A DNA stretch of 37,219 nucleotides, taken from Chitinophagales bacterium (lineage in GTDB: Bacteria; Bacteroidota; Bacteroidia; Chitinophagales; Chitinophagaceae). The DNA is taken from assembly GCA_021323755.1 (NCBI GenBank), contig JAJPKJ010000028.1, positions 1-37,219 of the forward strand. The letters are read 5' to 3'. This document shows, piece by piece, positions 6,854 through 27,955 of this stretch. The notes below the pieces were generated by a model. That model worked only from the letters and a program-made list of their open reading frames with translations. It was not told the origin of the DNA and ran no database searches. Numbering within the stretch: position 1 is the first letter of the stretch; the number at the start of each line of letters is the position of its first letter. Made by a program: the position numbers and the translations under genes.

Positions 6854-6865
6854 AAACGGTGGTTT

Positions 6866-8008: not shown

Positions 8009-9117
8009 AATCGCTAAAGATTGCCATATTGGGAACACGAGGGATCCCCAACAATTATGGCGGCTTTGAATATGCAGCAGAAAGACTTTCCACGGCATTG
8101 GCTTTTCGTGGACATGATATCACGGTGTATAATTCGCATAATCATTTATACAAAAGGGATATTTACGATGGTGTTCATATTATCCATTGCTACGATCCGG
8201 AATCTAAAATTGGAACAGCAGGCCAATTTGTTTATGACTTGAATTGTTTGCTTGATGCACGAAAAAGAAATTTTGATATCATTCTGATGTTCGGTTATAC
8301 CAGCAATGCCATTTGGGGGAGACTGTATCCGCCAAAGAGTATTATCATCACTAACATGGATGGCTTGGAATGGAAAAGGGAAAAGTATTCGAGACCCATT
8401 CGGGTTTACCTGAAACATGCAGAAAAATTAGCAGTGAGGTTTAGCGATTTTCATATCGCAGATTCCCTGGCGATTCAGAAATATCTTGCTGCGAAATATA
8501 ATATTGAACCTGCTTATATTCCTTATGGCGCGGATCTGTATGGACACGATGAAAAGATATCAGGGGGCGAATATCCAAGAAATAATGGAAACGGATTTTT
8601 ATTAATGGCGCGCATGGAACCTGAAAATAATGTAGAAACGATCCTTACCGGGTTTCATCAGAGTTATTCAAGGAAGAAATTTACAGTGATCGGTGATATT
8701 CAAAATCGGTTTGGAAAATACCTTACCAATAAATTCAAAAATGATTTGCGCATTGAATTCTCTGGAGCAGTTTTCGATAAGCAAAAAGTAAATAATTATC
8801 TGGCGCAGGCATATATTTATTTTCATGGGCACAGCGTAGGCGGAACAAATCCCTCATTGCTTCAAGCGATGGCAAACAAGACTTTGATCGCTTCGCACAG
8901 TAACCCTTTTAATGCTGCCATTCTTGAAAATGATGCGTTATATTTTTCGAACGCGAATGATGTACAATTTATTATCGACAATACGCAGATAGGCGAGAAA
9001 GAAGAAACAATGATCAGGAATAATCTAAAAAAAATTCAGCATGAATTCAACTGGAATGCCATTGCTGATCGTTATGAAGGTTTTATTATGGAATGCTATA
9101 ATAAGATGAAATTATGA
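8005..9117 (+). CDS. DUF1972-type glycosyltransferase
   Basis: A 370-residue protein starting KIAILGTRGIPNNYGGFEY, the hallmark of the DUF1972 N-terminal domain (PF09314) found in bacterial rhamnosyl- and other GT4-like transferases. The second half resembles a GT-B donor domain: LLMARMEPENNVETIL near residue 195 and GHSVGGTNPSLLQAM near 275, where the usual EX7E is altered to a form without the first Glu, as is common in DUF1972 proteins. It overlaps the upstream GT4 and the downstream polymerase-like gene by 4 bp each (ATGA), showing tight translational coupling. Likely role: adding one sugar to the polysaccharide repeat unit in the cytoplasm. The donor is unknown. Confidence 0.85.
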   Translation: MKSLKIAILGTRGIPNNYGGFEYAAERLSTALAFRGHDITVYNSHNHLYKRDIYDGVHIIHCYDPESKIGTAGQFVYDLNCLLDARKRNFDIILMFGYTSNAIWGRLYPPKSIIITNMDGLEWKREKYSRPIRVYLKHAEKLAVRFSDFHIADSLAIQKYLAAKYNIEPAYIPYGADLYGHDEKISGGEYPRNNGNGFLLMARMEPENNVETILTGFHQSYSRKKFTVIGDIQNRFGKYLTNKFKNDLRIEFSGAVFDKQKVNNYLAQAYIYFHGHSVGGTNPSLLQAMANKTLIASHSNPFNAAILENDALYFSNANDVQFIIDNTQIGEKEETMIRNNLKKIQHEFNWNAIADRYEGFIMECYNKMKL

Positions 9118-10367
9118 AGCGCATTTTTTTCATAGAAGATGAGTTGCCCAATAAAATAACTTATTACCATTTACTTGCATTTGTTATCAGTCTTCCCTTT
9201 GACCTTTTTTATAGTGAAGTGATATTGATAAGTCTTGGGATCCATACTGCAATTAATTTTCGAAAGGATGATTTTAAAAGATTAAAGAATAGAAATTTGT
9301 TTATTCTCACATCTTTATATTTTCTGTCCCTGGTATGTTCACTCTATACAACCAATAAGGACGAAGCATTATTCGATCTGACAAAAGAACTTGGACTTTT
9401 CATCTTTCCTTTAATATTTTGTTTGACCAGACTCAATATTTCGAAATACAAGGATCGATTGCTTCTTGCTTTTGCGATGACCTGTGTGTGTGCTATTTTG
9501 TATTTATTTATAGACTCAATTCGGGTGATTTTCTATTATCAGCTTCCTATCTCATTTCTATTTTCCGATAGTTTTTTAAATCAACGTTTTTCGGAACCCC
9601 TTGAAATCCACGCCACTTATCTTTCGATGTATGTTGCATTATCACTTGTCTTTTTGTTGTATTGTTTTACGAATAGTGCAGCGATGCAAAAAAAAGTATT
9701 AACCGGCCTCGGCTGTTTTATTCTTTTAATCGGATTGCTACAACTCGCTTCCCGAGCGGTTTTTATGGCCGAATCGATTATTGTCATTATTATTTTTCCT
9801 TTTTTTATTTCTCAAAAAAGGATTAGAATAAGATTCCTCTCTACTTCAATGCTGATCTTACTTGTAGCTTTAATTTTATTGCTGAAAAATGAGTCTTTCA
9901 AAGAAAGGTATGTTGAGGATTTGAAAGACGATTTCGTTTCAAATTTTTCAAGCGAAGGGAGAGTAATACGTTGGAAAACGATTGGGGAACTGATCTTGCA
10001 AAGACCTATAATTGGCTACGGAACAGGATCGGAAACGAAAATATTAAGAGCCAAATACCTGGAGCGGAAGTTATACAATTCCTATAATTACGGATTGAAT
10101 ACACACAGCGAGTATTTAGGCTATTTGCTTCGTGCGGGCATAATTGGATTATTTATTTTTCTTTTTGTCATTTCCTTTGGATTTTTTTGCGCATTAAAAA
10201 ATCGTGATATCGTTTTCCTTGCATTTATGACCATTATTACCATCGTTTCTTTTTCAGAAAATATTCTTGATGTAAATAAGGGGATATTTTTTTTCGGTTT
10301 CTTTTTTTCATTTTTTACGTTTTCAGAAGGATTGCCTGATAACGGAAGACGGGCTTCAACAGTCTGA
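9114..10367 (+). CDS. O-antigen ligase/polymerase family membrane protein (Wzy_C)
   Basis: A 417-residue protein with about ten to eleven hydrophobic helices and one moderate loop at about residues 265-345. The loop holds GRVIRWKTIGELI, PIIGYGTGSE and YGLNTHSEYLGYLLRAG, the canonical Wzy_C/O-antigen ligase signature (PF04932): an Arg near the loop start, then G-x-G, then the catalytic-type His in NTHSEYL. Family members polymerise undecaprenyl-diphosphate-linked repeats or transfer glycan to lipid A core or protein. It follows the DUF1972 gene with a 4-bp overlap and ends the first operon segment; a promoter-like element follows at once. It is the second such protein in the locus and the more canonical of the two. 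Confidence 0.85.
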   Translation: MKRIFFIEDELPNKITYYHLLAFVISLPFDLFYSEVILISLGIHTAINFRKDDFKRLKNRNLFILTSLYFLSLVCSLYTTNKDEALFDLTKELGLFIFPLIFCLTRLNISKYKDRLLLAFAMTCVCAILYLFIDSIRVIFYYQLPISFLFSDSFLNQRFSEPLEIHATYLSMYVALSLVFLLYCFTNSAAMQKKVLTGLGCFILLIGLLQLASRAVFMAESIIVIIIFPFFISQKRIRIRFLSTSMLILLVALILLLKNESFKERYVEDLKDDFVSNFSSEGRVIRWKTIGELILQRPIIGYGTGSETKILRAKYLERKLYNSYNYGLNTHSEYLGYLLRAGIIGLFIFLFVISFGFFCALKNRDIVFLAFMTIITIVSFSENILDVNKGIFFFGFFFSFFTFSEGLPDNGRRASTV

Positions 10368-10405: not shown

Positions 10406-10459
10406 TCGTTTTTACTTAGTAGGAGAAAAGGAAAATAAAATTTGAGTTTAGTGAATAAA

Positions 10460-11386
10460 ATGCAGCATACGAAATCGGATATATTGTCAACACTTGCTTA
10501 CTTTGATATCTTTAACCATCCGCTTACAAAAAAAGAAATCTGGTTATTTCTACCTGCCTATCGTGAGCAAGCAGAGTTGGATGATTCATTGCAAGCATTA
10601 GTGAACGATGCTGTTATTTTTAAGTTTGGAGAAATGTACAGCTTAAGCAATGATCCGGAAATTATTGAAGTCAGAAAAGAGAATAACAGAAATGCGGCAA
10701 CACTGATCATCACTGCAAAAAAGGTGGCAAGCTTCCTGGTCAAATTTCCATTTGTACGCGGACTCGGTGTTTCCGGCTCGCTTTCAAAAAATGTGGCCAA
10801 CAAATCATCTGATATAGATTTCTTTATTGTTACAGCTCCGAACAGACTGTGGATCGCGCGCAGTTTTATGCATTGTTTTAAGAAGTTCACTTTCCTGTTT
10901 AATAAGCAACATTTGTTTTGCATGAATTATTTTATTGATGAGGCGGAAATGGAGATTGAAGAAAAAAACATCTATACTGCGACTGAAATTGTAACATTAT
11001 TGCCGTTGCAGGGTGCGATGACGCTGGAAAGATTCTATAATGCAAACACCTGGAGCAAACATTATCTTCCAAATCAATTCATGCGTGTATCCATTGCTGA
11101 AAATGCAAAGCATTTTTTCCCAAAATACCTCATAGAGAAAGTATTCGATAATGGATTCGGCAATTGGCTTGATGATTTGTTAATGAATGTAACTTCAAAA
11201 AGATGGCAGAGGAAAACTATAGTAAACAAAAAAAATAGTCGTGGAATAACGATGAGCATGATCGCCGGAAAACACGTTGCCAAACCTGACCCAGTTTTTT
11301 TTCAAAGCGGTCTTTTGGATAAACATTGTAAAAAAGTTGAGCAATTGATCAAACAAGTCGAACCAGGTTACGCATTGGTGAAATAA
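10460..11386 (+). CDS. Nucleotidyltransferase-fold protein in a polysaccharide locus
   Basis: A 308-residue protein from the ATG at 10460. The frame is open to a TTG at 10442 that is better spaced from AGGAGAAAAGG (about 10421), so that start is possible. The N-terminus (ILSTLAYFDIFNHPLTKKEI) looks like a small winged-helix-like domain. The middle carries the Pol-beta-type signature GVSGSLSKNVANKSSDIDFF (about residues 103-122) with GS and DxD, the metal-binding core of minimal nucleotidyltransferases. The family could transfer NMP to protein, RNA or small molecules; the target is unknown. No antitoxin-like partner is adjacent. It sits between a polymerase-like gene and a GT2 gene, 21 bp before the latter. 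Confidence 0.7.
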   Translation: MQHTKSDILSTLAYFDIFNHPLTKKEIWLFLPAYREQAELDDSLQALVNDAVIFKFGEMYSLSNDPEIIEVRKENNRNAATLIITAKKVASFLVKFPFVRGLGVSGSLSKNVANKSSDIDFFIVTAPNRLWIARSFMHCFKKFTFLFNKQHLFCMNYFIDEAEMEIEEKNIYTATEIVTLLPLQGAMTLERFYNANTWSKHYLPNQFMRVSIAENAKHFFPKYLIEKVFDNGFGNWLDDLLMNVTSKRWQRKTIVNKKNSRGITMSMIAGKHVAKPDPVFFQSGLLDKHCKKVEQLIKQVEPGYALVK

Positions 11387-11407: not shown

Positions 11408-12151
11408 ATGGAAGTTTCAGTTGTCATCATTACCAAGAACGAAGCGGAAAATATTTCGTGCTGTATTAAAGGTGCGCAGCGCGTAAGTAAAGATATTATT
11501 GTTGTTGACTCCGGCAGCACAGATGATACCATAAAACTTGCAAGGGAAAACGGAGCAAGGGTTTTAGCCATTGACTGGACCAGTTTTGGTGATGCGCGTA
11601 ATGCAGGTGCGGCAATTGCAAATAACGATTGGATATTGGCGCTTGACGCGGACGAGAGAATCACAGAAGAACTCGTTATCTCAATCAATAATCTGGAACA
11701 AAATAATGCTGCAGCTATTTACGGTTTCAGAAGACAAGCATACCTGATCGATAAAAAAATCCGGTTTGGAGATTGGGGGCGAGATAAGGTTTTTCGGATT
11801 TATCATCGAAAAGCTACAGCATGGAATTTATTTCCTGTTCATGAGGCATTGATAACCCATGGTGTTCGAAAAAAATTGATCAAAGGAAATCTTGAGCATC
11901 TTGTTTCAAAAAGCATCGATAAGAATAAAGAAAAACTGATGCGATACGCGAAACTTTGCGCCAACAAGTATTGTTTGCTGGGTAGGAAGGCAAGCGTTGT
12001 CAATATAATATTCTCACCGGCATTTTGTTTTTTTAACGGGTATTTTTTTCGCCTGGGATTTCTTGATGGAAAAGAAGGCTTTAATATTGCAAAAGTAAAC
12101 GCATATTATACCTGGCTTAAATATTACTATCTCTATCGGCTCACGAAATAG
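11408..12151 (+). CDS. Glycosyltransferase family 2, WaaE/KdtX-like
   Basis: A 247-residue enzyme beginning MEVSVVIITKNEAENISCCI, with VVDSGSTDDT at about residues 32-41, DARNAGAA at about 62-69 and the metal-binding LALDADERIT at about 78-87. This compact pattern matches the WaaE/KdtX-type GT2 family, which includes beta-1,4-glucosyltransferases of the lipopolysaccharide core. The C-terminal half (GFRRQAYLIDKKIRFGDWG and YAKLCANKYCLLGRKA) also fits that family. The substrate in this organism cannot be deduced. The gene ends tail-to-tail with the minus-strand methyltransferase; the two coding regions overlap by 11 bp. Confidence 0.88.
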   Translation: MEVSVVIITKNEAENISCCIKGAQRVSKDIIVVDSGSTDDTIKLARENGARVLAIDWTSFGDARNAGAAIANNDWILALDADERITEELVISINNLEQNNAAAIYGFRRQAYLIDKKIRFGDWGRDKVFRIYHRKATAWNLFPVHEALITHGVRKKLIKGNLEHLVSKSIDKNKEKLMRYAKLCANKYCLLGRKASVVNIIFSPAFCFFNGYFFRLGFLDGKEGFNIAKVNAYYTWLKYYYLYRLTK

Positions 12152-12977
12152 CGCCATTTTTTTTCTTTAAAGAAACAATATAATAGTCGCCAATAGATCT
12201 CCACGGCCATTTTGATTTGTTTCTTTCTTCTTTTTCTTTTAGATATTTCCAGATGCGCGAGTATTTCTCTGCAAAATGTTCTATATAAGATGGTGGTACG
12301 ATGGTGCACAACCCTTCCAGGCATATTAGATCAAAGTCGCTCTTTACTTTTTTTATTATCTCCGAAGGATCATGATACCAGCACGTGAAGGGAACACCCT
12401 CAACATGAGCCTTTCTACCCTTACTGCTGAACCATCTTCTTGTTGCAGTTTTGAATTTTCCTTTTGCCAATAATAATGTTTCCCAAAAACAAAATCTTGG
12501 CAACATCACCAATGTTACTATTCCGCCAGGCTTTAATAAGGCATGAAAAGATGACAAGACATGATCTAATTCATCAGTACAGTTCAATCCTGCAAAATTT
12601 GAAAATATCAGATCATACGGACCTTTATTTTGCAAATTATTCAGATCGGTGAATGAACGTAACTCAGCGCTAACAAGAGTTTCAAGATTACTACTCTTAA
12701 TTTTTTGCTTTAGCACATCTTGCATTTCTGCAGAAATATCAGTTGCATGGATATTATGACCAAGCTCAGCAAAGAAAATGGCATCTTCTCCGGTGCCACT
12801 GTTCAATTCAAGAATATTACTTTTCACGGGCAAATATCCCAGCACATGATTTCTCACTCTTTCTCTTTTATATCGTATGATGGTATTGTTGGAATAAAGC
12901 TCATCAAATACAAAAGCTTGTTTTGAAAACGCAGTTGCCGCCAATTGTTCGTTAATATGTGAGTTGATCATTTTCAT
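12141..12977 (-). CDS. Class I SAM-dependent methyltransferase
   Basis: A 278-residue protein. SAM-binding motif I is ILELNSGTGEDAIFFAELG (about residues 55-73), with the acidic end of strand 2 in HATDIS just after, and a motif-II-like YDLIFSNFAGLNC near residue 120. This is a Methyltransf_11/25-type fold. The C-terminal part is basic and aromatic, as in methyltransferases acting at the membrane or on large substrates. It is the last gene of the seven-gene minus operon, 4 bp after a B12-type radical SAM gene. It may O-, N- or C-methylate the same product; the acceptor is unknown. Start is the first of two in-frame ATGs (MKM). Confidence 0.85.
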   Translation of the reverse strand: MKMINSHINEQLAATAFSKQAFVFDELYSNNTIIRYKRERVRNHVLGYLPVKSNILELNSGTGEDAIFFAELGHNIHATDISAEMQDVLKQKIKSSNLETLVSAELRSFTDLNNLQNKGPYDLIFSNFAGLNCTDELDHVLSSFHALLKPGGIVTLVMLPRFCFWETLLLAKGKFKTATRRWFSSKGRKAHVEGVPFTCWYHDPSEIIKKVKSDFDLICLEGLCTIVPPSYIEHFAEKYSRIWKYLKEKEERNKSKWPWRSIGDYYIVSLKKKNGAIS

Positions 12978-12981
12978 TCCC

Positions 12982-14439
12982 TCATTTTCCCAATTGTTGT
13001 AATTTTAATTTATCAAAATATGCTGCGGGCAAATAATATATCGCTGAAGATATTTTTTTAAGTGTTTTTAGATTTGTTTTCAGCGGATGAGAAAATAAAT
13101 TGAGCAAGTTGGCAAGGGCAAGATGTGTTCGATAACTTTTATGAACATAACGATGCAGTTGCCTGTAGAATGCAGGCTGGTAGGTGTTTTTGAACATTAG
13201 CGCCAATTCATCGGAATCCGTCCAGTTTGATTTTTGTATCAAGTCCTGTTTCACTTTTTCATAAAAGACAGTTCCTGGTAACGGATAAGAAACGGAGATA
13301 CCGATTTCGTGGGGCAACAATTCGTTGATCATGCGGATTGTCTTTTCGATATCTTCTTTTGTTTCTCCCAAATATCCAAATTGAATAAAGAATGATGGTT
13401 TGATATGATGTTTCTTAAGAAGATTGGTAGCTGAATAAATTTGCCCAACAGTCGTTCCCTTGTCCATTGCATCTAATATTTTTTGAGAACCGCTTTCTGC
13501 GCCCATCCAGATATTATCACAACCTGCACGTGCAAGGTCTTTGATGTAATTCTCCTGCAAAAGCAGGTCAGCCCGGCATTGAATTTTGAATTTGAATACT
13601 ATTTCCTCCTTTTCAACAAGATCGGCAAAAGCATTGACCCAACCGGGTTTCAGTCCAAAAATATCATCACAAAACCAGATGTGATCAATATCGAATTTCT
13701 CTTTTAATAATTTTATTTCTTTTATTACATTTTCCGGTGAACGCGAGTTGTAACGGTTTCCATAGATCGGTTTGGCGCACCAATTGCATTTAAATGGGCA
13801 ACCGCGCGTTGTTGCCATATTCATGGAGAAATACCCTGCATTCTTTTTCCAGGATTCTTTGTAGAGGTCAATATTAACCAAATCCCATGCAGGTAAAGGC
13901 AATGCATCGAGATCCTTTAAAACATTTCTTCTCTTCGTCTTCATGATGCTCCCATGTTGCGAAAAAGCAATGCCATCAATTGGTGAAAAGTCGTTTTCTT
14001 TTTTATTTATTGATTGGATCAATTCAAGCAATGCTATTTCTGCTTCTCCAAGTAAAATGAAATCGGCTCCTTGTTCTAAATATTCTTTGTAATGATCTGT
14101 TGAATCAGAACTGGATATGATCACAATACATCCGCGTTCTTTTGCACGATGGATCATCTTAAATGCGGCTTCACGCATATTCGTGAGACACATTTTGGTC
14201 AAATAATTAAATCCATCATCATAGAGCACAAAAAAGTCGGCGCCGGTATTTTCAAGCGGTTCAATGATTTCATCAGCAGACTTCGCGAACATCGAGTCGA
14301 ATAAATTCACCTGGTAACCATTGTCCCTTAATAATGCGGCGGCATATAAAGTTCCAAGAGGCGCATACGGCAATCCTATCTTCCATTGTTTTGGATCAAA
14401 ACGAAGAAAATAAGAATGAGAAAAAAGGATTTTGTTCAT
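12982..14439 (-). CDS. B12-binding-type (class B-like) radical SAM protein
   Basis: A 485-residue protein. Residues about 1-140 form a Rossmann-like cobalamin-binding-type domain (PYAPLGTLYAAALLRDNGY; ADFILLGEAE near 125-134). No DxHxxG motif is evident, so B12 would be bound base-off without a His ligand, if at all. The radical SAM core begins at about 207 with ATTRGCPFKCNWCAKP, giving the [4Fe-4S] cysteines C214, C218 and C221, then CDDIFGLKPGW and GAESGSQKILDAM. The C-terminal 100 residues are basic and aromatic. Family members include C- and P-methyltransferases and ring-forming enzymes of lipid, cofactor and antibiotic pathways. Its start overlaps the upstream gene's stop by one base (TAATG). 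Confidence 0.88.
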   Translation of the reverse strand: MNKILFSHSYFLRFDPKQWKIGLPYAPLGTLYAAALLRDNGYQVNLFDSMFAKSADEIIEPLENTGADFFVLYDDGFNYLTKMCLTNMREAAFKMIHRAKERGCIVIISSSDSTDHYKEYLEQGADFILLGEAEIALLELIQSINKKENDFSPIDGIAFSQHGSIMKTKRRNVLKDLDALPLPAWDLVNIDLYKESWKKNAGYFSMNMATTRGCPFKCNWCAKPIYGNRYNSRSPENVIKEIKLLKEKFDIDHIWFCDDIFGLKPGWVNAFADLVEKEEIVFKFKIQCRADLLLQENYIKDLARAGCDNIWMGAESGSQKILDAMDKGTTVGQIYSATNLLKKHHIKPSFFIQFGYLGETKEDIEKTIRMINELLPHEIGISVSYPLPGTVFYEKVKQDLIQKSNWTDSDELALMFKNTYQPAFYRQLHRYVHKSYRTHLALANLLNLFSHPLKTNLKTLKKISSAIYYLPAAYFDKLKLQQLGK

Positions 14440-15587
14440 TAAAAAAGTTTAATCTTTTTTGTTATTAATGCCGGTTCTTGATGAGACTTTAACCCGTTTT
14501 TTTTAATTACCAGTATCAGGATACTTATATAATACGCAATATATAGCCGATCGGAAATGATTGGCTGTAAAATAAATCGAAAAAAGATCGTTGAAATGAT
14601 GGTGATGAATAAAAGCTGATCAAAACTTAAGTTTTTTACCTGAAAAGACTTCTGATCAGCAAACAACAAAAGACCTAAAAGTACGAATAGCCCTACATCT
14701 GAATAAAACATGCCGGTCATTATCTGGGAATGTGCAACCGAAATATAATTTGCGATAGAAAATGACAAATGATTATCGTAATTCGGATTTAAGCGCATTA
14801 TAAATGAAGGATAATATAACAGACTCCATCCATATTTTCTAGCATTCCAGGAGACGAGAAAATAGCAGCCACACATTAATAATATGATCAGTAAATATTT
14901 TTTAAATGAGACCTTTTCCTTCCACTTATCGGTAAAGGCTAATAAGAAAGTGACAGATAGCGCTGGGATAATATTATCAAGTCTTGTAAAAATCGACAAT
15001 GCGAGAAATAAAGAAATGCCAGCCAGAGATTTTGTTTCTATCAAAAAATAAAAAGCGATAAGAAGAATTAATGATGACAAGCAATCCGGCGTGGATATTT
15101 GGGCTACTGATAATAATGGAGCGCTGAGCATAAGAAGGAGGCACGAAAAAAGGGCTATAAAAAAATTCAGGTATTTTTTTGACCAAAAAAAAATTAAAAC
15201 CCCAATAAAAAAATAGCTTATTACCGATGGAAAAACGACTGCCTTGGAGAGCGGAATCCCCGCTTTATAAAAGTAATATGCTGATCTTGTGTAAAGTGGT
15301 TTTACATCATAAAAAGGCAATTGTTGCGCAAAATAATTTGCATTTGCCGCAGCTTGTTTTCTCATTGGAATATTGCCATCGGTCAATAATTTATAATCCG
15401 CAGGAGGGGCTTGCTCTTTGATAATAGTGTATACCTGATCATGCACAAAATTCAAATTGCTGTCATCAGCAGATAAAACGATAGCCATATAGGGCAAAAT
15501 ATCCCAGTTATATTCCTGTTTTTTCAGACCCCGATATGCAAAAAGAGCAATACAGGAGAGATAAATAGAAATAAAAAGAATCTTCAT
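14439..15587 (-). CDS. Polytopic membrane protein, possibly GT-C-like
   Basis: A 382-residue protein that I cannot place in a named family. One N-terminal helix is followed by a hydrophilic stretch of about 75 residues (about 22-97) opening with YNWDILPYMA, then eight to ten hydrophobic segments. An acidic first loop after helix 1 and many later helices is the topology of GT-C glycosyltransferases, which use polyprenyl-phosphate sugars in the periplasm, and the Asp in NWDILPY could be catalytic; this is only suggestive. It overlaps the upstream GT39-like gene by 4 bp (ATGA) and the downstream radical SAM gene by one base, so it surely belongs to this operon. Confidence 0.65.
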   Translation of the reverse strand: MKILFISIYLSCIALFAYRGLKKQEYNWDILPYMAIVLSADDSNLNFVHDQVYTIIKEQAPPADYKLLTDGNIPMRKQAAANANYFAQQLPFYDVKPLYTRSAYYFYKAGIPLSKAVVFPSVISYFFIGVLIFFWSKKYLNFFIALFSCLLLMLSAPLLSVAQISTPDCLSSLILLIAFYFLIETKSLAGISLFLALSIFTRLDNIIPALSVTFLLAFTDKWKEKVSFKKYLLIILLMCGCYFLVSWNARKYGWSLLYYPSFIMRLNPNYDNHLSFSIANYISVAHSQIMTGMFYSDVGLFVLLGLLLFADQKSFQVKNLSFDQLLFITIISTIFFRFILQPIISDRLYIAYYISILILVIKKNGLKSHQEPALITKKIKLF

Positions 15588-17116
15588 GGAGTTTTTTCTT
15601 TTTGCATCATTACCTTATAAACATAATAATCGGGTTTTATGATGTTATTATCAAAAACGGCTAATCGTTGAAATTGAAACTTAGATTTTGAAGAATGGAT
15701 TTCATTTGATGTTACTTGGCGAACAGACACCAATACAAAGTCACTATGTGTATTAATATAGGCGGATTCATCTAAGAGTTCGGCCAATGGTTTTTGCGGC
15801 ACTTCGAAATAAGATTTTTTCCAGTAGCAGTAACTCCCGGGTTTATCAATATTTAAGTAGAAAACCTTCGTTCCAAGATAAGCGCTCAATGCCGGACCGC
15901 CTCCATACCCGTCAACAACAATCATATTACTGTCGAGATGATTTGTTTTGATGAATGCAATTGTATTTTTCGCCCCGCTAAAAGGCCTGGCAACATCACT
16001 TGCATAAGCATATATACCTGAGAAAAGATGACAGGTCAATATAAAATATGAAAAATAGAATAAGAATTTCTTTCCTTTTAGTCGGTTAACAGAAACGGAA
16101 AAAATATTTTCTTTTTCATATCCATCGAGCCAGAGTGCGGCAAGAAAAAATATAAAGAATATGCCAAAATAGCGACTAGCGCGCATTTGTGAAACGTACA
16201 AAAATATCATCAACATCAATGTAGAGGAGAGATAGAATAACAATACCGGTTTGTTTTTGTAAAACAATGCAACGGTATATACAAGAATAAAAGCAGCGAT
16301 TATAAGTTTGATAAAAGTGGGTAATAAATCGTATAAATAATGATTCCAAAAATCCCCGTTTTTTGAGAATGGTATAGGAAGAAATCCTTTTGACAATCCA
16401 TAGAATGCTGAAAAGAAATTTCCCGTGGAATTCCATGCTGTTTTTTCGGGATGAAAATATGTATTGTCGGGAGGAATATTGATCTGGGCGATCACACTGA
16501 AAATTCCAATGGCAAATAATGACAGAAAAATAAAGAAACGCAGATCAATTTGTTTTGCGTGAAAAGTTCTTAAAAAAACGTAAAAAGCGATCGACGTTGC
16601 TGCGAACAGAAAAAACAAATGCACATTGCACATTAAGATAAGTAAAACAGCGATCCATAGAATATTTTTACGCAGATCGGCGAGTAATACGCAGCATGCA
16701 AACAATAATAGAATTCCGGGGGTATAATTTCTGCTGATGACATCGTATTCGTATAAGAAAAAATAACCGCCGATAATTAATAATTTAGTTAACAAACGAA
16801 AAGGTGCATAACGCAAAAAAATAAACACTGTGGAATTAATGAGAAGCAAGTGGAAAACTTGCATGGATAAAGGATTTGATGAGATGTAATGAGTAATGAA
16901 AAACAACATGAAATTCCATAGTCTCACATGCCCGTCGTACTGCATGTTGTAATAGACCTCCTTTAGAGAATCACTGTCTCTGGCGATTAAAAAATGTTGC
17001 GCTTCGTCAAGCCACAATTCATGATTAAAGATTCCGACCGCGCTGAAAAATAAAAAAATCAGCGAGATCGGCAGTATTTGTTTTAAGGCAACAGGAATTG
17101 TTTTTTGATTCAGCAT
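15584..17116 (-). CDS. GT-C membrane glycosyltransferase (GT39/ArnT-like)
   Basis: A 510-residue protein with about ten to twelve helices. After the first helix it has NHELWLDEAQHFLIARD (about residues 29-45), the D-E motif in the first periplasmic loop typical of GT39/ArnT/PMT-type enzymes, and a loop with YNMQYDGHVRLWNFM near 55-69. The C-terminal 110 residues are soluble (GPALSAYLGTKVFYLNI), also common in this group. Such enzymes transfer a sugar from a polyprenyl monophosphate donor to lipid, glycan or protein on the periplasmic side. It lies 28 bp after the SPASM-type radical SAM gene and overlaps the next gene by 4 bp. It may add the sugar made or modified by its neighbours. Confidence 0.8.
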   Translation of the reverse strand: MLNQKTIPVALKQILPISLIFLFFSAVGIFNHELWLDEAQHFLIARDSDSLKEVYYNMQYDGHVRLWNFMLFFITHYISSNPLSMQVFHLLLINSTVFIFLRYAPFRLLTKLLIIGGYFFLYEYDVISRNYTPGILLLFACCVLLADLRKNILWIAVLLILMCNVHLFFLFAATSIAFYVFLRTFHAKQIDLRFFIFLSLFAIGIFSVIAQINIPPDNTYFHPEKTAWNSTGNFFSAFYGLSKGFLPIPFSKNGDFWNHYLYDLLPTFIKLIIAAFILVYTVALFYKNKPVLLFYLSSTLMLMIFLYVSQMRASRYFGIFFIFFLAALWLDGYEKENIFSVSVNRLKGKKFLFYFSYFILTCHLFSGIYAYASDVARPFSGAKNTIAFIKTNHLDSNMIVVDGYGGGPALSAYLGTKVFYLNIDKPGSYCYWKKSYFEVPQKPLAELLDESAYINTHSDFVLVSVRQVTSNEIHSSKSKFQFQRLAVFDNNIIKPDYYVYKVMMQKEKTP

Positions 17117-17144
17117 TATCCGTTAATTATCCCCAGGCATTTTA

Positions 17145-18179
17145 TTATATTGGCAAGTTCAGGTAGCAAACACATTTTTTACAAATGCTGTTTGTATCCA
17201 TATCAAGATTTTTTCTGAAGCTCATTCCTTTTTCACCATTCAATATCTGATCTAAATTGGTTTCATGAATATTTCCGATGGCTTCATGAAAGAAACACGG
17301 ACGAACGGTTCCATCAGCCTCAACAACTGTCGAAACCCATGGGGCGTTACATTTTTTGTAGGGGAAAGGATTTAGCTTGTAGAATGCAGCATAATATTCA
17401 TAAATCTTTCTCAGTTTTTCCGGAGATTCTGCGACAAAATGATTTTGAAATTCTGCACTATGATTTTCAATAATGAAATCGAGTAATGTATTTAGCTCGG
17501 AGAGTTCATCTTCGGGTAAAAGAATTTCGTGTTGTTTCGCCGGGCTCCACAATATTTCGCGATTAAATGCATGACTGCTCACGTCGGCCGGTAAAAAACT
17601 AATTTGATTCAACTGCAGTTCTTTTGCACATTCAATAATGGCTGGCCATGCTTTATAATTCAATTTATGTATAACGGTCCGGGCAGTTATTTGAAAATTT
17701 GGATTGATTGACCTGATGAATGCTACGCCTTCTTTTATTTTATTAAATGCGCCGGGAATATTTCTTATTTGATCATGCAAAGTTTCGGGGCCATCAATGG
17801 AGATGATAATATCGTTAACCCATCTTAGCAATTGTTCGGTATTTTTTTTGATCGTTAAGCCAGTTGATAATAATGAAATGTTTATCCCTTCCCGCTGAAG
17901 CATTTCACAAAGGCGAAAGAAATTTTGATTTAATAATGCTTCGCCACCGGACATTACCACCTGTTGTGTTCCGAATTTTTTTAATGATGATAATAACCCT
18001 TGTACATCTTGTGCTGTGAGCTGTTTTAAATTTTTATTGTCCTTCCAGATGTCGCACATTACGCAGCGGCAATTGCAAGCACTGTGCGGCATTAAAATAA
18101 CAATAGGAAGCGCAGAAATTTTATGCGTTTGTAAAGTTCTGTATCGTTGATAACTATGATATAGCGATTTTACTTGCAA
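17145..18179 (-). CDS. Radical SAM protein with SPASM/twitch-like C-terminus
   Basis: A 344-residue enzyme. The [4Fe-4S]/SAM motif is CX3CX2C at C35, C39 and C42 within SACNCRCVMCDIWK. The next conserved part, QQVVMSGGEALLN (about residues 73-85), is the GGE motif that contacts SAM. The C-terminus has extra cysteines at 277, 295, 333, 336 and 338 (KKCNAPW, RPCFFHEA, CKKCVC), consistent with a SPASM or twitch domain binding auxiliary Fe-S clusters. Enzymes of this kind modify peptides, sugars (including dehydrogenation or epimerisation of aminoglycosides) and other small molecules. No precursor-peptide gene was seen nearby, which favours a sugar or lipid substrate. Gap of 1 bp to the upstream methyltransferase. 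Confidence 0.88.
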   Translation of the reverse strand: MQVKSLYHSYQRYRTLQTHKISALPIVILMPHSACNCRCVMCDIWKDNKNLKQLTAQDVQGLLSSLKKFGTQQVVMSGGEALLNQNFFRLCEMLQREGINISLLSTGLTIKKNTEQLLRWVNDIIISIDGPETLHDQIRNIPGAFNKIKEGVAFIRSINPNFQITARTVIHKLNYKAWPAIIECAKELQLNQISFLPADVSSHAFNREILWSPAKQHEILLPEDELSELNTLLDFIIENHSAEFQNHFVAESPEKLRKIYEYYAAFYKLNPFPYKKCNAPWVSTVVEADGTVRPCFFHEAIGNIHETNLDQILNGEKGMSFRKNLDMDTNSICKKCVCYLNLPI

Positions 18180-18180
18180 A

Positions 18181-18915
18181 TTAATATTGTTTGATGATGA
18201 TGTAGTAAAAGGGCTGATGATTTTTCTTCAATTTATTTACGATGTTATTCGGGTTGTAAATGATTTTATGTTTGAACGCATTAAGATCGTCAAGGCAATG
18301 ATGAAAATAAAAATCACTCATTTCTTCAAAACCAATGGAAGTATAATAATGTTTAGTTCGCTGAAATGCATTTTCCTTCTCGTCTTTCTTATAAAATGGT
18401 GTGTCGATGATATGAATTTCACCAGTTGATACCAGCAATGATAACGCTGTATTGATTATATCCGTGAAGGAACTGAAATACTGTATTGACGCAGCAAACA
18501 CGATGATATCGAATGCATGTTGTTTTAAAGATGCTGATCTGATATCTCCATAAATAAAATGGAGATTGTCTTTTTTTTCAAATACCGTAACCGCCTGCAT
18601 CAGCTCGATCCGGTTAATGTCCATGCCGGTTATCTTGGAGTTTTGTATTGCGGATAATCTTGAACAAAGCCAGCCATTGCCGCAACCGACTTCCAGAATA
18701 TTTAATGTGGTTTTCTTTTTTTTGAGTAATTCAATTAATTGTTCTGACGATCTTTTCCTGACGATCCATTCATTGGCATGCGGATGGCCTGGCTCAATTT
18801 CTGGTAATTTGGCAATTTGTTGATTGGAGTATATCCTTTGCTCGCTGACACGTACATTGTGATAATGCTTTTCAAAAGAATCCTGATATTTTTGTATTGA
18901 TACGTTTTGTTTCAT
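18181..18915 (-). CDS. Class I SAM-dependent methyltransferase
   Basis: A 244-residue protein. SAM motif I is LNILEVGCGNGWLCSRLS (about residues 70-87), followed by ITGMDINRIELMQA at the second strand, HFIYGDIRS, and the motif-II-like FDIIVFAASIQYFSSF near 135-150. This is a Methyltransf_11/12/25-type fold. The N-terminal 65 residues contain a charged helix (ERKRSSEQ-like: VRKRSSEQLIELLKKK) that may help recognise the substrate. It lies 1 bp from both neighbours, a B12-type radical SAM gene upstream and the SPASM-type radical SAM gene downstream. It is one of two methyltransferases in this operon; the acceptor is unknown. Confidence 0.88.
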   Translation of the reverse strand: MKQNVSIQKYQDSFEKHYHNVRVSEQRIYSNQQIAKLPEIEPGHPHANEWIVRKRSSEQLIELLKKKKTTLNILEVGCGNGWLCSRLSAIQNSKITGMDINRIELMQAVTVFEKKDNLHFIYGDIRSASLKQHAFDIIVFAASIQYFSSFTDIINTALSLLVSTGEIHIIDTPFYKKDEKENAFQRTKHYYTSIGFEEMSDFYFHHCLDDLNAFKHKIIYNPNNIVNKLKKNHQPFYYIIIKQY

Positions 18916-18916
18916 T

Positions 18917-20416
18917 TTAAAATCCCTGAATTTCCGGTTGACGATATCTCCATAATCGCTGCAATAGCTTTATTTCATAAGGATGTTTATAAAAATTAAT
19001 CTTGTAGCGCATGCCAGCGGTCAGGCGCATGATCTTTCGCTTGATGCTGTTTAAGCGTATATCCGACACTGTTGGATAATATCCGTTTAACACTGTTTCA
19101 AAATTTCTGATCTTGTCTATCATTTCCGCTGTAAGCCATGGTGTCAGCGGGTTTTTGCGCATATCAAAATTTTCCCATTCCGGATTTATCCAGTCTTCTA
19201 ATTTTTTTGGAAATGTAAATCCTTTCTGCAGCACTTCATTATACAACTCGGAGCCTTCAGTTGGAACGGGACTATACGTGTATAAAACGATTTCCGTTTT
19301 TGGGTTCGCCTCCTTTATTCTTTTAATGAAATTGATGTCGAAATCAATTTGCTGCATTACTTCTTCAGGAGTTGGCGCAGGCGTTCCGAGCACAAATGAG
19401 TATTCTGGTATAATGTCAAATTGTTTTAATCGCGAAGCAAATTCTTCAATTTGTTCGCCGGTTTGTGTTCCGCCTTTGTCCAATTGTTTCAATACTTTTT
19501 CGTTCCCGCTTTCTGCTCCAAAAAAAATGATTTTGCAACCGGCTTCACGGATCAGCGACAAGGATTCATCTTTGAATTTGTGCATGGTGTCAATTCTGGC
19601 CATTCCCCACCAACTCATTTTTTCTGGCTTTATCAGTTTTGAAAACTCAACACTTCTTTTTTCAGAAACAAAAAAATTGTTGTCATGAAATTCAATGGCA
19701 TCGGCACCCCACTTATCTTTTATGTACTTGATATCCTTATAAACGGTTTGTGCTGATTTTGCTTTCCATCTCGCTTCATAAATGGGGACTACTGCGCAAA
19801 ACGAACAAGTGAATGGACAACCTATGCTTGAATGATAGGCGAGTGTTTTATCGCCAAGATAAGTTCTACCAAGATATTTTTCTATCGGGTAAAATGTATC
19901 CAGTTTATGGTAAGGCAAAGGTTTCAAACTTTCCTGGTCGATCAAATCCTCTTTTGTGGTTTTTATTATGGTTGTATCAGATTTGTACGCAATATTTTTT
20001 ATGAACTCGTATGGGGTATTATTTTCTAATGCATCAATCAATTGGGGAAAGGCATTATCACCCGGTCCGTTAATAACAAAATCAACATAACCCGAATTCA
20101 GCACTACTTTATAATGATTGGTGGGGAAATATCCGCCCCAGATTATTATTGTGGAAGGAAATAATTCTTTTATCTTTTTTGCAAGCGGGATGGATTGCTT
20201 CATTTGAGGTCCTGGCATCACGGTAAAGCCAATATATCTATACTCGCCTGTATTTAGGTAACCCGCAATTCTTTCAAAGGAATCATTTTCGCGATTTCCA
20301 TCAACAATTGCCCAATCATATTTGCCCTCGACCGAAGCTGCAATATTTAAAATAGAATTGGGGATTCTGTATTTAGCAACGGCACTCCGAGGATTGAATA
20401 ATATTATCTTATGCAT
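18917..20416 (-). CDS. B12-binding-type radical SAM protein, first gene of the operon
   Basis: A 499-residue protein from the ATG at 20416 (MHKIILFNPRS); the frame is open to 20446, but the extra ten residues do not fit the family start. Residues about 1-135 are the cobalamin-binding-type domain: IIIWGGYFPTNHYKVVL (about 90-106) and VDFVINGPGDNAFPQLI (about 111-127). The radical SAM core has HSSIGCPFTCSFCAVVP with cysteines C200, C204 and C207, then FHDNNFFVSEKR and FFGAESGNEKVLKQLDKGG, and PEYSFVLGTPAPTPEEV. This is the layout of the class B radical SAM/BchE-like superfamily. It is a different subgroup from the enzyme at 12982-14439. The operon promoter should lie in 20417-20623, which is shared with the divergent methyltransferase. 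Confidence 0.88.
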   Translation of the reverse strand: MHKIILFNPRSAVAKYRIPNSILNIAASVEGKYDWAIVDGNRENDSFERIAGYLNTGEYRYIGFTVMPGPQMKQSIPLAKKIKELFPSTIIIWGGYFPTNHYKVVLNSGYVDFVINGPGDNAFPQLIDALENNTPYEFIKNIAYKSDTTIIKTTKEDLIDQESLKPLPYHKLDTFYPIEKYLGRTYLGDKTLAYHSSIGCPFTCSFCAVVPIYEARWKAKSAQTVYKDIKYIKDKWGADAIEFHDNNFFVSEKRSVEFSKLIKPEKMSWWGMARIDTMHKFKDESLSLIREAGCKIIFFGAESGNEKVLKQLDKGGTQTGEQIEEFASRLKQFDIIPEYSFVLGTPAPTPEEVMQQIDFDINFIKRIKEANPKTEIVLYTYSPVPTEGSELYNEVLQKGFTFPKKLEDWINPEWENFDMRKNPLTPWLTAEMIDKIRNFETVLNGYYPTVSDIRLNSIKRKIMRLTAGMRYKINFYKHPYEIKLLQRLWRYRQPEIQGF

Positions 20417-20623
20417 ACTCAGAAATTCAGTGGTTCTGTGATGCAATTATCATACGTTTTTTTTGCCCAAAAGTTGCCCGAATTATAAATAAACGCCTTG
20501 AAAAGCAACTGTTTCCAGCGCAATTCGTATTTATTACAGAAGCATTTCATAAAACGCAACTCACTCCCCAATATTCTCATCTAATTTTAGTCATTATCAT
20601 GAATTGAATACCATTTCAGGAAT
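20417..20623. promoter_or_regulatory. Divergent control region between two operons
   Basis: This 207-bp gap separates the seven-gene minus operon from the plus-strand methyltransferase-amidohydrolase-GT9 operon, so promoters for both must lie here or within the flanks. The plus strand has TAATTTTA at about 20582-20589, one mismatch to TAnnTTTG, without a correctly spaced TTTG. No convincing minus-strand match, operator or hairpin was seen. Confidence 0.4.
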
Positions 20624-21367
20624 ATGCTGGGAACTGTAAAAAAATATTTTAGAAATAGAAACAAAATGGTCGTTGAAAAAACTGCCGAAGATGCTTATGA
20701 TCTATGGGCGGAAACTTACGACAATCAGCCCGGAAACCTGATGATTGACTTGGATGAGGTCATTTTCTCGACATTATTATCAGAAGTAAGTGTTTCAGGA
20801 AAAAAAGTCGCGGATATTGGTTGCGGGACGGGAAGACATTGGGAAAAAATATTTTTGCAGCAGCCTGCCTTATTAAAAGGTTTTGATGTTTCTGAGGGGA
20901 TGCTAAAGAAATTGAAAAGAAAATTTTCGGGTTCTTCAGTTAAAAAGGTCACAGATAATCAATTTGTGGATGAAGCGGATGAATATTTTGATATTATCGT
21001 CTCTACACTTACTATCGCGCATATAGAAAATATGGGAGAAGCGGTTTGTTCATGGTCGCGGATGTTAAAGAATGGAGGAGAAATGATCATCACCGATTAT
21101 CATCCTGCACTTTTGAATGATGGCGGGAAAAGAACGTTCAGGCACGATCAGCAATCTTTGGCGATAAAGAATTTTGTTCATTCCTTGGAATATCTTGAAA
21201 AAATGTTTCACCAAAATGATCTTGTATTGATCAGTAAGATTGAAAAAAGAATTGACGATTCAATGAAACATTATTACGTTCGGCAAAATGCATTGCCAAC
21301 TTTTGAAAAATTCAAAGGCAAACCTGTAGTGTATGGTATGCATCTGAAAAAAAATGATACTCAATAA
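20624..21367 (+). CDS. Class I SAM-dependent methyltransferase (UbiE/Methyltransf_11-like)
   Basis: A 247-residue protein. AYDLWAETYDNQPGN (about residues 24-38) precedes SAM motif I KVADIGCGTGRHWEKI (about 61-76); the next elements are FDVSEGML, DIIVSTLTIAHIENM and a post-motif segment GEMIITDYHPALLN. This is a typical cytoplasmic Methyltransf_11-type enzyme resembling those that act on quinones, sugars or lipids. Its 3' end overlaps the amidohydrolase start by 14 bp, so the two are likely translationally coupled and act on the same substrate. It is the third SAM methyltransferase fold in this part of the locus. Confidence 0.87.
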   Translation: MLGTVKKYFRNRNKMVVEKTAEDAYDLWAETYDNQPGNLMIDLDEVIFSTLLSEVSVSGKKVADIGCGTGRHWEKIFLQQPALLKGFDVSEGMLKKLKRKFSGSSVKKVTDNQFVDEADEYFDIIVSTLTIAHIENMGEAVCSWSRMLKNGGEMIITDYHPALLNDGGKRTFRHDQQSLAIKNFVHSLEYLEKMFHQNDLVLISKIEKRIDDSMKHYYVRQNALPTFEKFKGKPVVYGMHLKKNDTQ

Positions 21368-22520
21368 CGTAAAACTTTACGGCGGGAATAGACCTGTAAA
21401 TATTATTGTTGATGGAGATCGCATCGCAGATGTGCCAGGCAACAATGATAATATTTCTTCGGATGACCCGTTGCAATTACATTTCAATAACGTTGTTGCT
21501 TTTCCGGGATTTATAAATTCTCACGATCATATCGATTTTAATCTCTTCCCTCAAATGGGAGATCGGTTGTTTGATAATTATAACGATTGGGGAAAATACA
21601 CATTAAAAAAATATAGAGAAGACATTGATAGGGTATTAAAAATTCCTTTACAGTTGCGTGTTTTGTGGGGCATATATAAAAATTTGTTGTGCGGGATAAC
21701 AACTGTTATTAATCATGGGCAAAGGATCGACATTGATGAACCTGTGATAAATGTTTTTCAAAATTGTCATTGCCTGCATTCGGTTGAATTTGAGAAAAAC
21801 TGGAAATACAAACTGAATGGGAGCTCTTCAGAGAAATTATTTGTAATTCATATTGGCGAAGGGAAAGATGCATATTCAAAAAAGGAGATTGACAAACTAA
21901 TCCGGTGGAATTTGTTTCGAAAGAATATTATTGGCGTTCACGGTATTGCGATGACAGAAAAACAAGCTGAATCATTCAAAGCTTTGGTTTGGTGCCCTGC
22001 ATCAAATTATTTTATGTTCAATGAAACTGCACGAGTTGATATTTTAAAAGAAAACACATCAGTTATTTTTGGAACAGATTCAACATTGACGGCAGGTTGG
22101 AACTTGTGGGATCATTTGCGGCAGGCAAAAGAAGCATCATTGGTTAACGACGAAGAGCTGTTTTCCATGCTTACACTGAAACCTGCTACGGTATGGGGTT
22201 TTGGGAATTTGGGAGCGATTGAAAAAAATAAGGCTGCCGATATTGTAATTGCTAAGTCAAAAAGTGCCAATAACAGTAGCGAGCATTTTTTTAAGACCAA
22301 CCCGGAGGATATCCTATTGATCGTGCATAATGGTTCAATAAAACTATTTGATTCGGTATTGCTGGAACAACTACAAAAAGATGAGATTTCAAAAATGAGT
22401 TTCAGCAAGATAATTGTTAATGGTTCTGAGAAATATGTTTATGGTGATTTGCCGGCATTGATCAAAGAAGTAAAGAAATATTATCCTGAAGTCATTTTCC
22501 CAATTGTTTCAACTGAATAA
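21354..22520 (+). CDS. Amidohydrolase/deaminase-like metal-dependent hydrolase
   Basis: A 388-residue amidohydrolase-superfamily protein (PF01979) with all expected metal ligands: HxH at H57/H59 in INSHDHID, H166 in VIHIGEG, H196 in GVHGIAM and D242 in IFGTDSTL. WCPASNYFMFNE (about 213-224) resembles the CPxSN motif of SAH/MTA and guanine-deaminase-type members, and there is no obvious carboxylated Lys, which suggests a mononuclear deaminase-like site. The C-terminus returns to the composite beta-domain (GNLGAIEKNKAADIVIAK). Possible reactions are hydrolytic deamination or amide hydrolysis of a sugar or nucleoside intermediate. It overlaps the methyltransferase by 14 bp and is followed after 5 bp by a GT9 gene. 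Confidence 0.82.
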   Translation: MILNNVKLYGGNRPVNIIVDGDRIADVPGNNDNISSDDPLQLHFNNVVAFPGFINSHDHIDFNLFPQMGDRLFDNYNDWGKYTLKKYREDIDRVLKIPLQLRVLWGIYKNLLCGITTVINHGQRIDIDEPVINVFQNCHCLHSVEFEKNWKYKLNGSSSEKLFVIHIGEGKDAYSKKEIDKLIRWNLFRKNIIGVHGIAMTEKQAESFKALVWCPASNYFMFNETARVDILKENTSVIFGTDSTLTAGWNLWDHLRQAKEASLVNDEELFSMLTLKPATVWGFGNLGAIEKNKAADIVIAKSKSANNSSEHFFKTNPEDILLIVHNGSIKLFDSVLLEQLQKDEISKMSFSKIIVNGSEKYVYGDLPALIKEVKKYYPEVIFPIVSTE

Positions 22521-26270: not shown

Positions 26271-26275
26271 TGATT

Positions 26276-27049
26276 TTATGCCTTCTTTTTTGCGTGTATG
26301 AAGGTGCGTAAAGTTCTCAATATAATCTGTAACTCCATTTTCACAGACCATTGTTTGATATAGAGCAGGTCGAAAAGTAAACGTTCTTCGATTTTTTCTG
26401 GATCATTTGTAGAACCGAAACTCCCCAGAGACTGTGACAAACCGGTTATTCCAGGACTTACTTCGTTTCTGTATGGATATTCTTTGATCATTTGTTGGTA
26501 TAAAATATTTTCACTGAGCATGTGCGGCCTGGGACCGATAAGTGACATATCACCGGTAAGAACATTGATGAGTTGGGGGATTTCATCTAAATGATAATGT
26601 CTTAAAAACCTACCTACAGTAGTTATTCTTTCATCATTTTCATAAGTTGAACGAATATCGGCTTCATCATTCATGACCATAGTTCGGAACTTAATGCAAG
26701 TGAACACCGCGCCATTTTGTTTATTTCTCTTCTGTAAAAAGAAAACAGGTCCTTTTGAGTTTATTTTTATGAATAATGCAAGAAGCGGAACCAGCCAGGG
26801 CATTATTAAAATAATGCAAAATGTTGAAAATGCTATATCGACTGTGCGCTTAAAGTAACGATTCCTGTTTTTTTTGAGCGGAGAATCTAGATCAATTAAT
26901 TTGGAGAGTAAGTTTGATGTGTAATCATTTTTTTTGGCAGGATATATATTTAATATAGGAAGTTCATTTCTATTTAAGGCAATAACCTTCTTATGAATAG
27001 GTAAATTATTTTTAAGTTCTGAGATTACTATAATGTTTTCATTCTTCAT
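26276..27049 (-). CDS. Initiating sugar transferase (undecaprenyl-phosphate, PF02397)
   Basis: A 257-residue phosphoglycosyltransferase. A hydrophobic segment at about residues 70-95 follows YFKRTVDIAF; next are KGPVFFLQKRNKQNG (about 99-113), CIKFRTMVMND, the catalytic Asp-Glu in HLDEIPQLINVLTGDMSLIG (D155/E156) and PRP at 173-175. This is the monotopic catalytic domain of the WcaJ/WbaP/PglC superfamily, which transfers a sugar-1-phosphate to undecaprenyl phosphate and so starts repeat-unit synthesis. The N-terminal 65 residues are soluble and lack the four extra helices of full-length WcaJ. It is the only recognisable initiating enzyme here, although it sits in the sigma-led minus unit and not beside Wzx. 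Confidence 0.92.
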   Translation of the reverse strand: MKNENIIVISELKNNLPIHKKVIALNRNELPILNIYPAKKNDYTSNLLSKLIDLDSPLKKNRNRYFKRTVDIAFSTFCIILIMPWLVPLLALFIKINSKGPVFFLQKRNKQNGAVFTCIKFRTMVMNDEADIRSTYENDERITTVGRFLRHYHLDEIPQLINVLTGDMSLIGPRPHMLSENILYQQMIKEYPYRNEVSPGITGLSQSLGSFGSTNDPEKIEERLLFDLLYIKQWSVKMELQIILRTLRTFIHAKKKA

Positions 27050-27952: not shown

Positions 27953-27955
27953 TGA

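Follow-up and report, generated by a model that had tools for sequence, protein, structure and literature searches.

Gene organization of the module

The DNA analysed here, called the window throughout, is a stretch of 37,219 nucleotides from a Chitinophagales bacterium (contig JAJPKJ010000028.1, C48 in our numbering, one of the 75 contigs that make up a genome of 4.08 Mb). It carries genes for radical S-adenosylmethionine (SAM) enzymes, methyltransferases, a nucleotidyltransferase and an amidohydrolase, which together form a candidate sugar-tailoring module of a surface polysaccharide locus. Calling of open reading frames (ORFs) on the window gave a minus-strand run of seven ORFs (12141-20446), whose junctions, counted from the low-coordinate end, are +4, -1, -4, +28, +1 and +1 bp. 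An earlier reading of the letters alone (the sequence-only reading) had described these seven genes as one operon. The run and its junctions are real; however, comparative genomics shows that it is not the natural unit, since it consists of two layers and lacks partners that were missed. Thus, the operon was seen correctly, but its borders were misplaced and its membrane genes over-read: TM382 and TM510 are a variable insertion, and the set described did not include MT3, AmdH and NTase. The genes of the module and of the run are as follows (aa, amino acids; SAH, S-adenosylhomocysteine; MTA, methylthioadenosine).

10442..11386, plus strand: NTase, minimal nucleotidyltransferase (PF01909, 24.3 bits against a cut-off of 21), convergent partner of the core
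12141..12977, minus strand: MT1, class I methyltransferase by Pfam (278 aa), core
12982..14439, minus strand: RS1, cobalamin-type radical SAM enzyme (485 aa), core
14439..15587, minus strand: TM382, polytopic membrane protein (382 aa), variable passenger
15584..17116, minus strand: TM510, polytopic membrane protein with no family assigned (510 aa), variable passenger
17145..18179, minus strand: SPASM, radical SAM/SPASM enzyme (344 aa, TTG start), goes with RS2
18181..18915, minus strand: MT2, class I methyltransferase by Pfam (244 aa), usual but not constant
18917..20416, minus strand: RS2, second cobalamin-type radical SAM enzyme, ATG start
20447..20623, no strand: divergent intergenic region between RS2 and MT3, holding only frames of 25-53 aa
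20624..21367, plus strand: MT3, class I methyltransferase encoded divergently from RS2 and linked to AmdH
21354..22520, plus strand: AmdH, amidohydrolase with a predicted adenosine/MTA/SAH-deaminase-like fold, mutually exclusive with the methyltransferase c13 described below

The end of RS2 at 20416 is an inner ATG chosen in the sequence-only reading; from a TTG start the gene spans 18917-20446 and encodes 509 aa. The motif GSLSKNVANKSSDID was found in NTase. The CX3CX2C motifs of all three radical SAM proteins are intact, as had been noticed before, and begin at C214 in RS1, C210 in RS2 and C35 in SPASM.

NTase, MT1 and RS1 form a core to which RS2 is added

We compared stretches of up to 20 kb around the module genes in a family sample of 195 genomes, and the surroundings of 128 RS2 loci, 119 of which are distinct and 83 of which have 5.5 kb on both sides. 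The ORFs of these loci were called mechanically, and identities of 26-40% underlie some of the methyltransferase and NTase labels; Fisher values for co-occurrence take no account of kinship. RS2 is present in 36 and RS1 in 52 of the family genomes, and 34 of the 36 RS2 genomes also have RS1. Among the 83 deduplicated RS2 loci with full flanks, RS1 was found in 77, MT1 in 78, NTase in 67, SPASM in 72 and MT2 in 48; MT3 occurs in 64 and AmdH in 65, and all 64 MT3 loci have AmdH. Three genes of the host cluster recur there as well, namely GT4c (69 loci), the ABC exporter (56) and, within the fetched flanks, the WcaJ-type transferase (26). A set of 80 named loci, the best 80 of 545 relatives by similarity to RS2, leans to the AmdH type. 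In the 66 of these with at least five downstream ORFs we found RS1 in 66, MT1 in 66, SPASM in 65 and MT2 in 46, and the 73 with at least three upstream ORFs hold MT3 together with AmdH in 67 cases, AmdH alone in one and neither in five.

The two layers come apart in 17 loci that have RS1 only (L067-L083). NTase is present in all 17; MT1 passes the identity limit applied in 16, MT2 is found in five, AmdH in four and SPASM in none. It can be concluded from this gene content that the core, NTase-MT1-RS1, which is found in RS1 loci with or without RS2, separates from an add-on consisting of RS2, mostly with SPASM and often with MT2. The locus counts also show that the membrane genes are passengers and that NTase, MT3 and AmdH belong to the unit. 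The earlier expectation that the seven genes occur together is therefore borne out for five of them, which recur together in RS2 loci, and fails for TM382 and TM510; the wide co-localization confirms that most genes of the run are a functional group.

AmdH and c13 replace one another beside RS2

In other genomes, an NPPY-type methyltransferase, c13, stands in for the MT3-AmdH pair. MT3 and AmdH lie mostly on the divergent strand, and in 90 of 94 cases no more than 500 bp separate MT3 from RS2; c13 is encoded on the RS2 strand and lies at most 153 bp from RS2 in 22 of 25. The two arrangements exclude each other. Among the 36 family genomes with RS2, AmdH is present in 17 and c13 in 18; none has both and one has neither. 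In the 83 RS2 loci the figures are 65 for AmdH and 18 for c13, with no locus having both and none having neither. At the limits used, AmdH and c13 are absent from all 141 sampled family genomes without RS1 or RS2.

When the AmdH or c13 label was placed on a tree of RS2 (79 rows), at least five changes were needed, four of them forced by starred branches; the labelling behind this figure was the less strict one for c13, which is weak in L220 and L221, and the tree program gave a long-branch warning for the deepest rows. Five loci (L132, L135, L160, L212 and L215; four AmdH, one c13) were kept out of the tree and of a stricter count given below because the aligned stretch translated with a stop. 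The either-or pattern is thus not one inherited event, and the independent events are few.

The predicted structure of AmdH is confident (pLDDT, predicted local distance difference test, 93.1), and the active-site residues of the amidohydrolase group are kept; their roles would be those of that group. The predicted fold is nearest to adenosine and MTA/SAH deaminases such as TM0936 and 4gbd, which we take to be subtype III amidohydrolases. AmdH appears to share the fold and the active-site residues of this group, but is just 16-19% identical in the fold alignments and reaches no family cut-off. Its best profile match, among weak profile matches to the Protein Data Bank (PDB), was TM0936 (E 3.5e-10), and a search with the single sequence gave no PDB match. 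It scored below every NCBIfam cut-off, its best score being that with chlorohydrolase (41.1 bits against 294); with 5'-deoxyadenosine deaminase it had 34 against 522. c13 keeps the NPPY motif, and its nearest relatives are N6AMT1/HemK2 and HemK. Enzymes of the amidohydrolase and the NPPY-methyltransferase types both act on planar C-N groups, i.e., an amide, an amidine or an amino-heterocycle. Since AmdH and c13 replace one another, the pattern suggests that both finish the same nitrogen-bearing group.

A flavin-reductase-like family, d15, was observed in AmdH loci only (22 of 22). We do not press this association, because a separate flavin-reductase-like family is present in several c13 loci (L051, L052, L053, L056, L061 and L066). 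Proteins of these families have about 305-325 aa, match Flavin_Reduct below the cut-off and are encoded near RS2 or AmdH.

TM382 and TM510 are local additions

The sequence-only reading had assigned two GT-C-like, GT39-like proteins to the run. Both have seven hydrophobic segments in a simple scan; however, TM382 matches PMT_2 with 17.9 bits, under the cut-off of 26.1, and the GT39 label of TM510 found no support. TM510 gave no Pfam or NCBIfam match at E<=0.01 and, with a six-row profile, no PDB match at E<=0.1. Against a PMT_2-positive family that can occupy the same slot between RS1 and SPASM, hhalign returned a probability of 0.5% for TM382 and 4.3% for TM510. This slot is usually closed: in 94 loci, a count which keeps copies of one contig, RS1 and SPASM are at most 200 bp apart in 73 and 200-1000 bp in seven; another 13 have a gap of 1-3 kb and one a gap of 6 kb. 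Its occupants are d21, a different membrane family, in nine loci (its member in L085 scores 40.4 bits with PMT_2), TM510 in two, which are one contig fetched twice, and TM382 in one. With TM382 in only 3 and TM510 in only 1 of the 83 RS2 loci, neither can be held to be core, and we conclude that they are local additions outside the mechanism.

A frame of 108 aa was also noticed in this slot in a genome of the same genus (L046:9356-9682, the same as L162:13245-13571, one contig). It is 65% identical to TM510 over 75 residues and looks like a TM510 remnant.

RS1 and RS2 resemble cobalamin-dependent radical SAM enzymes

In Pfam searches, RS1 scored 86.6 bits with Radical_SAM and, at the border, 30.2 bits with the B12-binding domain (cut-off 32.1; 32.3 bits when the frame includes its neighbours). 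RS2 scored 46.4 and 45.6 bits, respectively, the latter over the cut-off, and SPASM 53.7 bits with Radical_SAM and 45.7 with the SPASM domain. The cysteines of the cluster-binding motif are invariant across 29 RS1 sequences (C214, C218, C221) and across 17 RS2 sequences (C210, C214, C217), and so are SPASM cysteines 277, 295, 333, 336 and 338 across 22 sequences. Structure comparison of the RS1 model agrees with the expected cobalamin-radical-SAM fold: the predicted B12-like domain and radical SAM barrel are like those of OxsB, TsrM, TokK, CysS, MgmA and AprD4, and RS2 resembles these enzymes in having both Pfam domains over the cut-off.

By profile, the best solved relatives of RS1 are MgmA, AprD4, OxsB and CysS; of the top two, MgmA is a methylase, whereas AprD4 dehydrates a sugar. 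For RS2, the profile search gave AprD4 as the sole solved relative at E<=1e-5. AprD4 is a 1,2-diol dehydratase according to its PDB title, and its substrate is the aminosugar paromamine. Since AprD4 has the same fold as RS1, the fold alone does not imply methylation, and with both enzymes as near relatives methylation and dehydration are both possible for RS1. C-methylation in particular, which had been suggested as a possibility for the operon, is therefore not upheld. Neither RS1 nor RS2 reached the NCBIfam cut-offs for known B12-radical-SAM families (BchE, HpnJ, HpnR, PhpK, MgmA/MJ_0865); the best scores were 144.8 bits for RS1 (BchE, cut-off 481.35) and 113.8 bits for RS2 (BchE). A placement in MiaB, HpnJ or HpnR, with a function independent of the module, was likewise not seen, as none of their NCBIfam cut-offs was reached. 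In PMC8992657, uncharacterized members of the cobalamin radical SAM family are stated to far outnumber the characterized ones.

The genome of the window holds a third B12-type radical SAM gene (G000:C62:70761-72143), whose product is 29% identical to RS2.

The module lies in a polysaccharide cluster

The genes on both sides of the module confirm the surface-glycan setting that had been proposed for the run.

2627..10367, plus strand: Wzx-type flippase, GT2 and GT4 glycosyltransferases and a Wzy_C protein of the same polysaccharide cluster
23543..24598, minus strand: GT4c, Glycos_transf_1 glycosyltransferase of the host cluster
24591..26351, minus strand: ABC exporter of the host cluster, with membrane and ATPase domains
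26276..27049, minus strand: WcaJ-type sugar-phosphate transferase

The Pfam scores in this cluster are 72 bits for Polysacc_synt, 72.5 for Wzy_C and 198.6 for Bac_transf (the WcaJ-type protein), and several glycosyltransferases were recognized, including a GT9 protein; a 549-aa protein encoded at 4189-5838 had no Pfam match. By its gene content, the locus is identified as a Wzx/Wzy-type surface polysaccharide cluster. A sugar substrate, such as AprD4 has, fits this setting. Riboswitch control of the genes was considered as well and is weakened, as an Rfam scan of the window gave no match at all at the gathering score.

A proposed two-layer sugar-tailoring scheme

The module is real, widely shared and functionally coherent, and it lies in a known kind of locus. 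We propose, with a confidence that is moderate at best, that it tailors a sugar in two layers within a Wzx/Wzy-type surface polysaccharide locus (exopolysaccharide or lipopolysaccharide O-chain) of a member of the Chitinophagaceae, combining B12-type radical chemistry with one of two interchangeable C-N enzymes. What the data establish are the genes with their intact motifs, the folds predicted for RS1 and AmdH, the co-localization, the exclusivity and the setting; the substrate, the reaction types, the order of steps and the role of NTase we infer. In the first layer, RS1 would make a radical change, either C-methylation or 1,2-diol dehydration/deoxygenation, on a nucleotide- or lipid-linked sugar of the repeat unit, MT1 would methylate the product, and NTase would presumably activate the building block. 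In the second layer, present in a subset of loci, RS2 with SPASM and often MT2 would make a second radical change. The finishing step, found nearly always with RS2, would be performed by MT3 and AmdH or else by c13, and the target shared by these enzymes is likely the nitrogen of a carboxamide, an amidine or an amino-heterocycle. Polymerization and export of the modified unit would follow, carried out by the machinery of the cluster itself.

Several observations weigh against this scheme. As to exclusivity, a strict recount of 78 loci, in which c13 had to adjoin RS2, gave 61 with AmdH, 14 with c13, none with both and three with neither, and among all 128 RS2 loci with flanks of any length there were 93, 22, 0 and 13, respectively. 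Three of the 18 c13 calls are weak, namely those in L220 and L221 (31-32% identity, 4-11 kb away) and in L043 (9.9 kb away). AmdH also occurs in four RS1 genomes without RS2, and c13 in one such genome (G060, on another contig), which shows that the tie of either gene to RS2 is not strict; both are missing from 14 of 54 module genomes. The module is patchy, as shown by a congener (G127) without RS1 and RS2. In the RS1 model, residues 214-227, which form the cluster-binding loop, and residues 315-326 are uncertain (pLDDT below 50), and the matches of RS1 to BchE- and HpnJ-like profiles make a non-sugar substrate possible. A position within a glycan cluster is no proof that the substrate is a glycan, and the action of both finishing enzyme types on planar C-N groups is in part background on these families.

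Other explanations of the module

The best surviving alternative, which we nevertheless regard as unlikely, is that the module makes a small molecule or non-sugar aglycone, adenosyl-derived or an amino-heterocycle, that is later hung on the glycan. AmdH would then be a true nucleoside-type deaminase, c13 an N-methyltransferase of an amino-heterocycle, and the radical SAM step would add a 5'-deoxyadenosyl group, a reaction known from aminofutalosine (MqnE) chemistry. However, AmdH reaches the cut-off of no nucleoside deaminase and falls far below that for 5'-deoxyadenosine deaminase given above. HemK-type methyltransferases methylate the glutamine amide, and with such relatives c13 does not single out adenine. 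No nucleosidase was noticed in the cluster, where no search aimed at nucleosidases was made.

Alternatively, AmdH could be a house-cleaning enzyme which deaminates SAH, MTA or 5'-deoxyadenosine, the by-products of the SAM enzymes of the module, and leaves the glycan untouched. The profile match to TM0936, the best fold matches to adenosine and MTA/SAH deaminases and the crowding of the locus with SAM enzymes all speak for such a role. We still find it improbable: elsewhere AmdH is replaced by c13, a methyltransferase that would produce SAH and not remove it, and the c13 loci have similar SAM enzymes yet no AmdH.

A modification of a membrane lipid or of the polyprenyl carrier (hopanoid- or ladderane-like) instead of a sugar is more doubtful still. 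RS1 does match the HpnJ profile (132.3 bits) and a ladderane-type B12 family (107.3 bits), but these scores are far under the curated cut-offs of 577.6 and 360, and the neighbours are glycan genes. The squalene-hopene cyclase C-terminal domain (PF13243) has no match in the genome of the window and was matched in 2 of 14 controls; this weakens the hopanoid link and does not affect a modification of the polyprenyl carrier.

SPASM radical SAM enzymes often mature peptides, and there are profile matches, far under the cut-off, to maturases of ribosomally synthesized and post-translationally modified peptides; such a product is nonetheless very improbable here, as had been argued before, given that the junctions of -4 to +28 bp leave no room for a precursor gene, the RS1-SPASM distance is mostly short (above) and the divergent gap has only its 25-53 aa frames (conserved small ORFs across loci and distant precursors were not searched).

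Comparison with known systems

Radical SAM enzymes that tailor sugars are known chiefly from antibiotic pathways. In aminoglycoside tailoring, cobalamin-type radical SAM enzymes likewise act on sugars (GenK, which is reported to C-methylate, and AprD4 in dehydration). These pathways, however, belong to secreted antibiotics of actinomycetes, whereas the module described here is tied to a surface-polysaccharide cluster of Bacteroidota. Titles and abstract beginnings in the open-licence PMC literature yielded no described cluster that combines radical SAM/B12 enzymes with polysaccharide genes in this way, which is weak evidence of absence. Under the two-layer scheme, the tailoring of sugars by radical SAM enzymes appears to be widespread and exchanged as a tool for surface glycans, and the mutual exclusion of AmdH and c13 leads to a clear-cut prediction on one chemical group that can be tested.

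The Wbp/Vim SAGA pathway of Porphyromonas gingivalis offers another comparison. In PMC7468200 and PMC13086638, VimE, a putative CE4 deacetylase, and VimA, an N-acetyltransferase-like protein, are proposed to exchange an acetyl group for an amino acid on the glucuronamide that anchors cargo of the type IX secretion system (T9SS), i.e., on a surface-polysaccharide sugar with a carboxamide. The linking sugar of Prevotella intermedia differs, as stated in PMC11969387. In 22 of the 83 RS2 loci we found a CE4-type deacetylase together with a GNAT acyltransferase (the d17/d18 pair, e.g., L129:5873-6823 and neighbours), and the two are at most 100 bp apart in all 27 RS2 loci having both; the pair was not seen in the window, neither among the ORFs scanned, which were part of the total, nor on reading. 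It is reminiscent of VimE/VimA, a likeness in kind only. The link to type IX secretion is shared, as one protein encoded in the window bears a T9SS sorting domain. In contrast, no Wbp genes were identified in the window, and the main texts of PMC7468200 and PMC13086638 do not once use the term "radical SAM".

We mention as a speculation of low probability that a radical-made sugar (uronamide- or amidine-like) found across the phylum, so far undescribed, remodelled by up to three radical SAM enzymes and finished at its one planar C-N group either by N-methylation (c13) or by hydrolysis and methylation (AmdH and MT3), could serve a SAGA-like role for type IX cargo in soil and freshwater Bacteroidota. 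If this unit did anchor secreted proteins, it would bear on the attachment of type IX cargo outside oral pathogens.

Distribution of the module and its transfer

RS1 was detected in 43 of 298 genomes sampled from the order, and RS2 in 17 of 395 genomes sampled evenly over Bacteroidota, 11 of the 17 being outside the class of the window. Of 14 loci from outside the order, 10 contain RS1 (49-66% identity), 13 an MT1-like gene (29-65%) and 10 an NTase-like gene (26-49%); the gene order is often broken up there, and the lowest identities may represent other family members. The five genes of the run that recur in RS2 loci are also found, in part, in loci of other classes of the phylum. In the RS2 tree, the sequence from Dyadobacter frigoris (Spirosomataceae, L110) falls in a starred set of 20 rows that otherwise consists of Mucilaginibacter and Bacteroidetes bins, and pairs with Mucilaginibacter pankratovii at support 87. 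This placement points to a probable transfer of the cluster between families. The carriers include named isolates, among them strains of Mucilaginibacter, Pinibacter and Dyadobacter frigoris, which makes the glycan accessible.

Genes beyond the polysaccharide cluster

The part of the window at 27062-31391 encodes a sigma factor, a barrel protein of the outer membrane and some small exported products. One label in this region is a DUF5777 barrel; the OB-like, cytochrome-like and YceI-like labels come from reading the sequence alone. Parts of the region recur beside the polysaccharide cluster in four family loci (L043, L045, L055 and L076). Further on, at 31780-34605, a large protein is encoded, which carries its type IX sorting domain at the C terminus.

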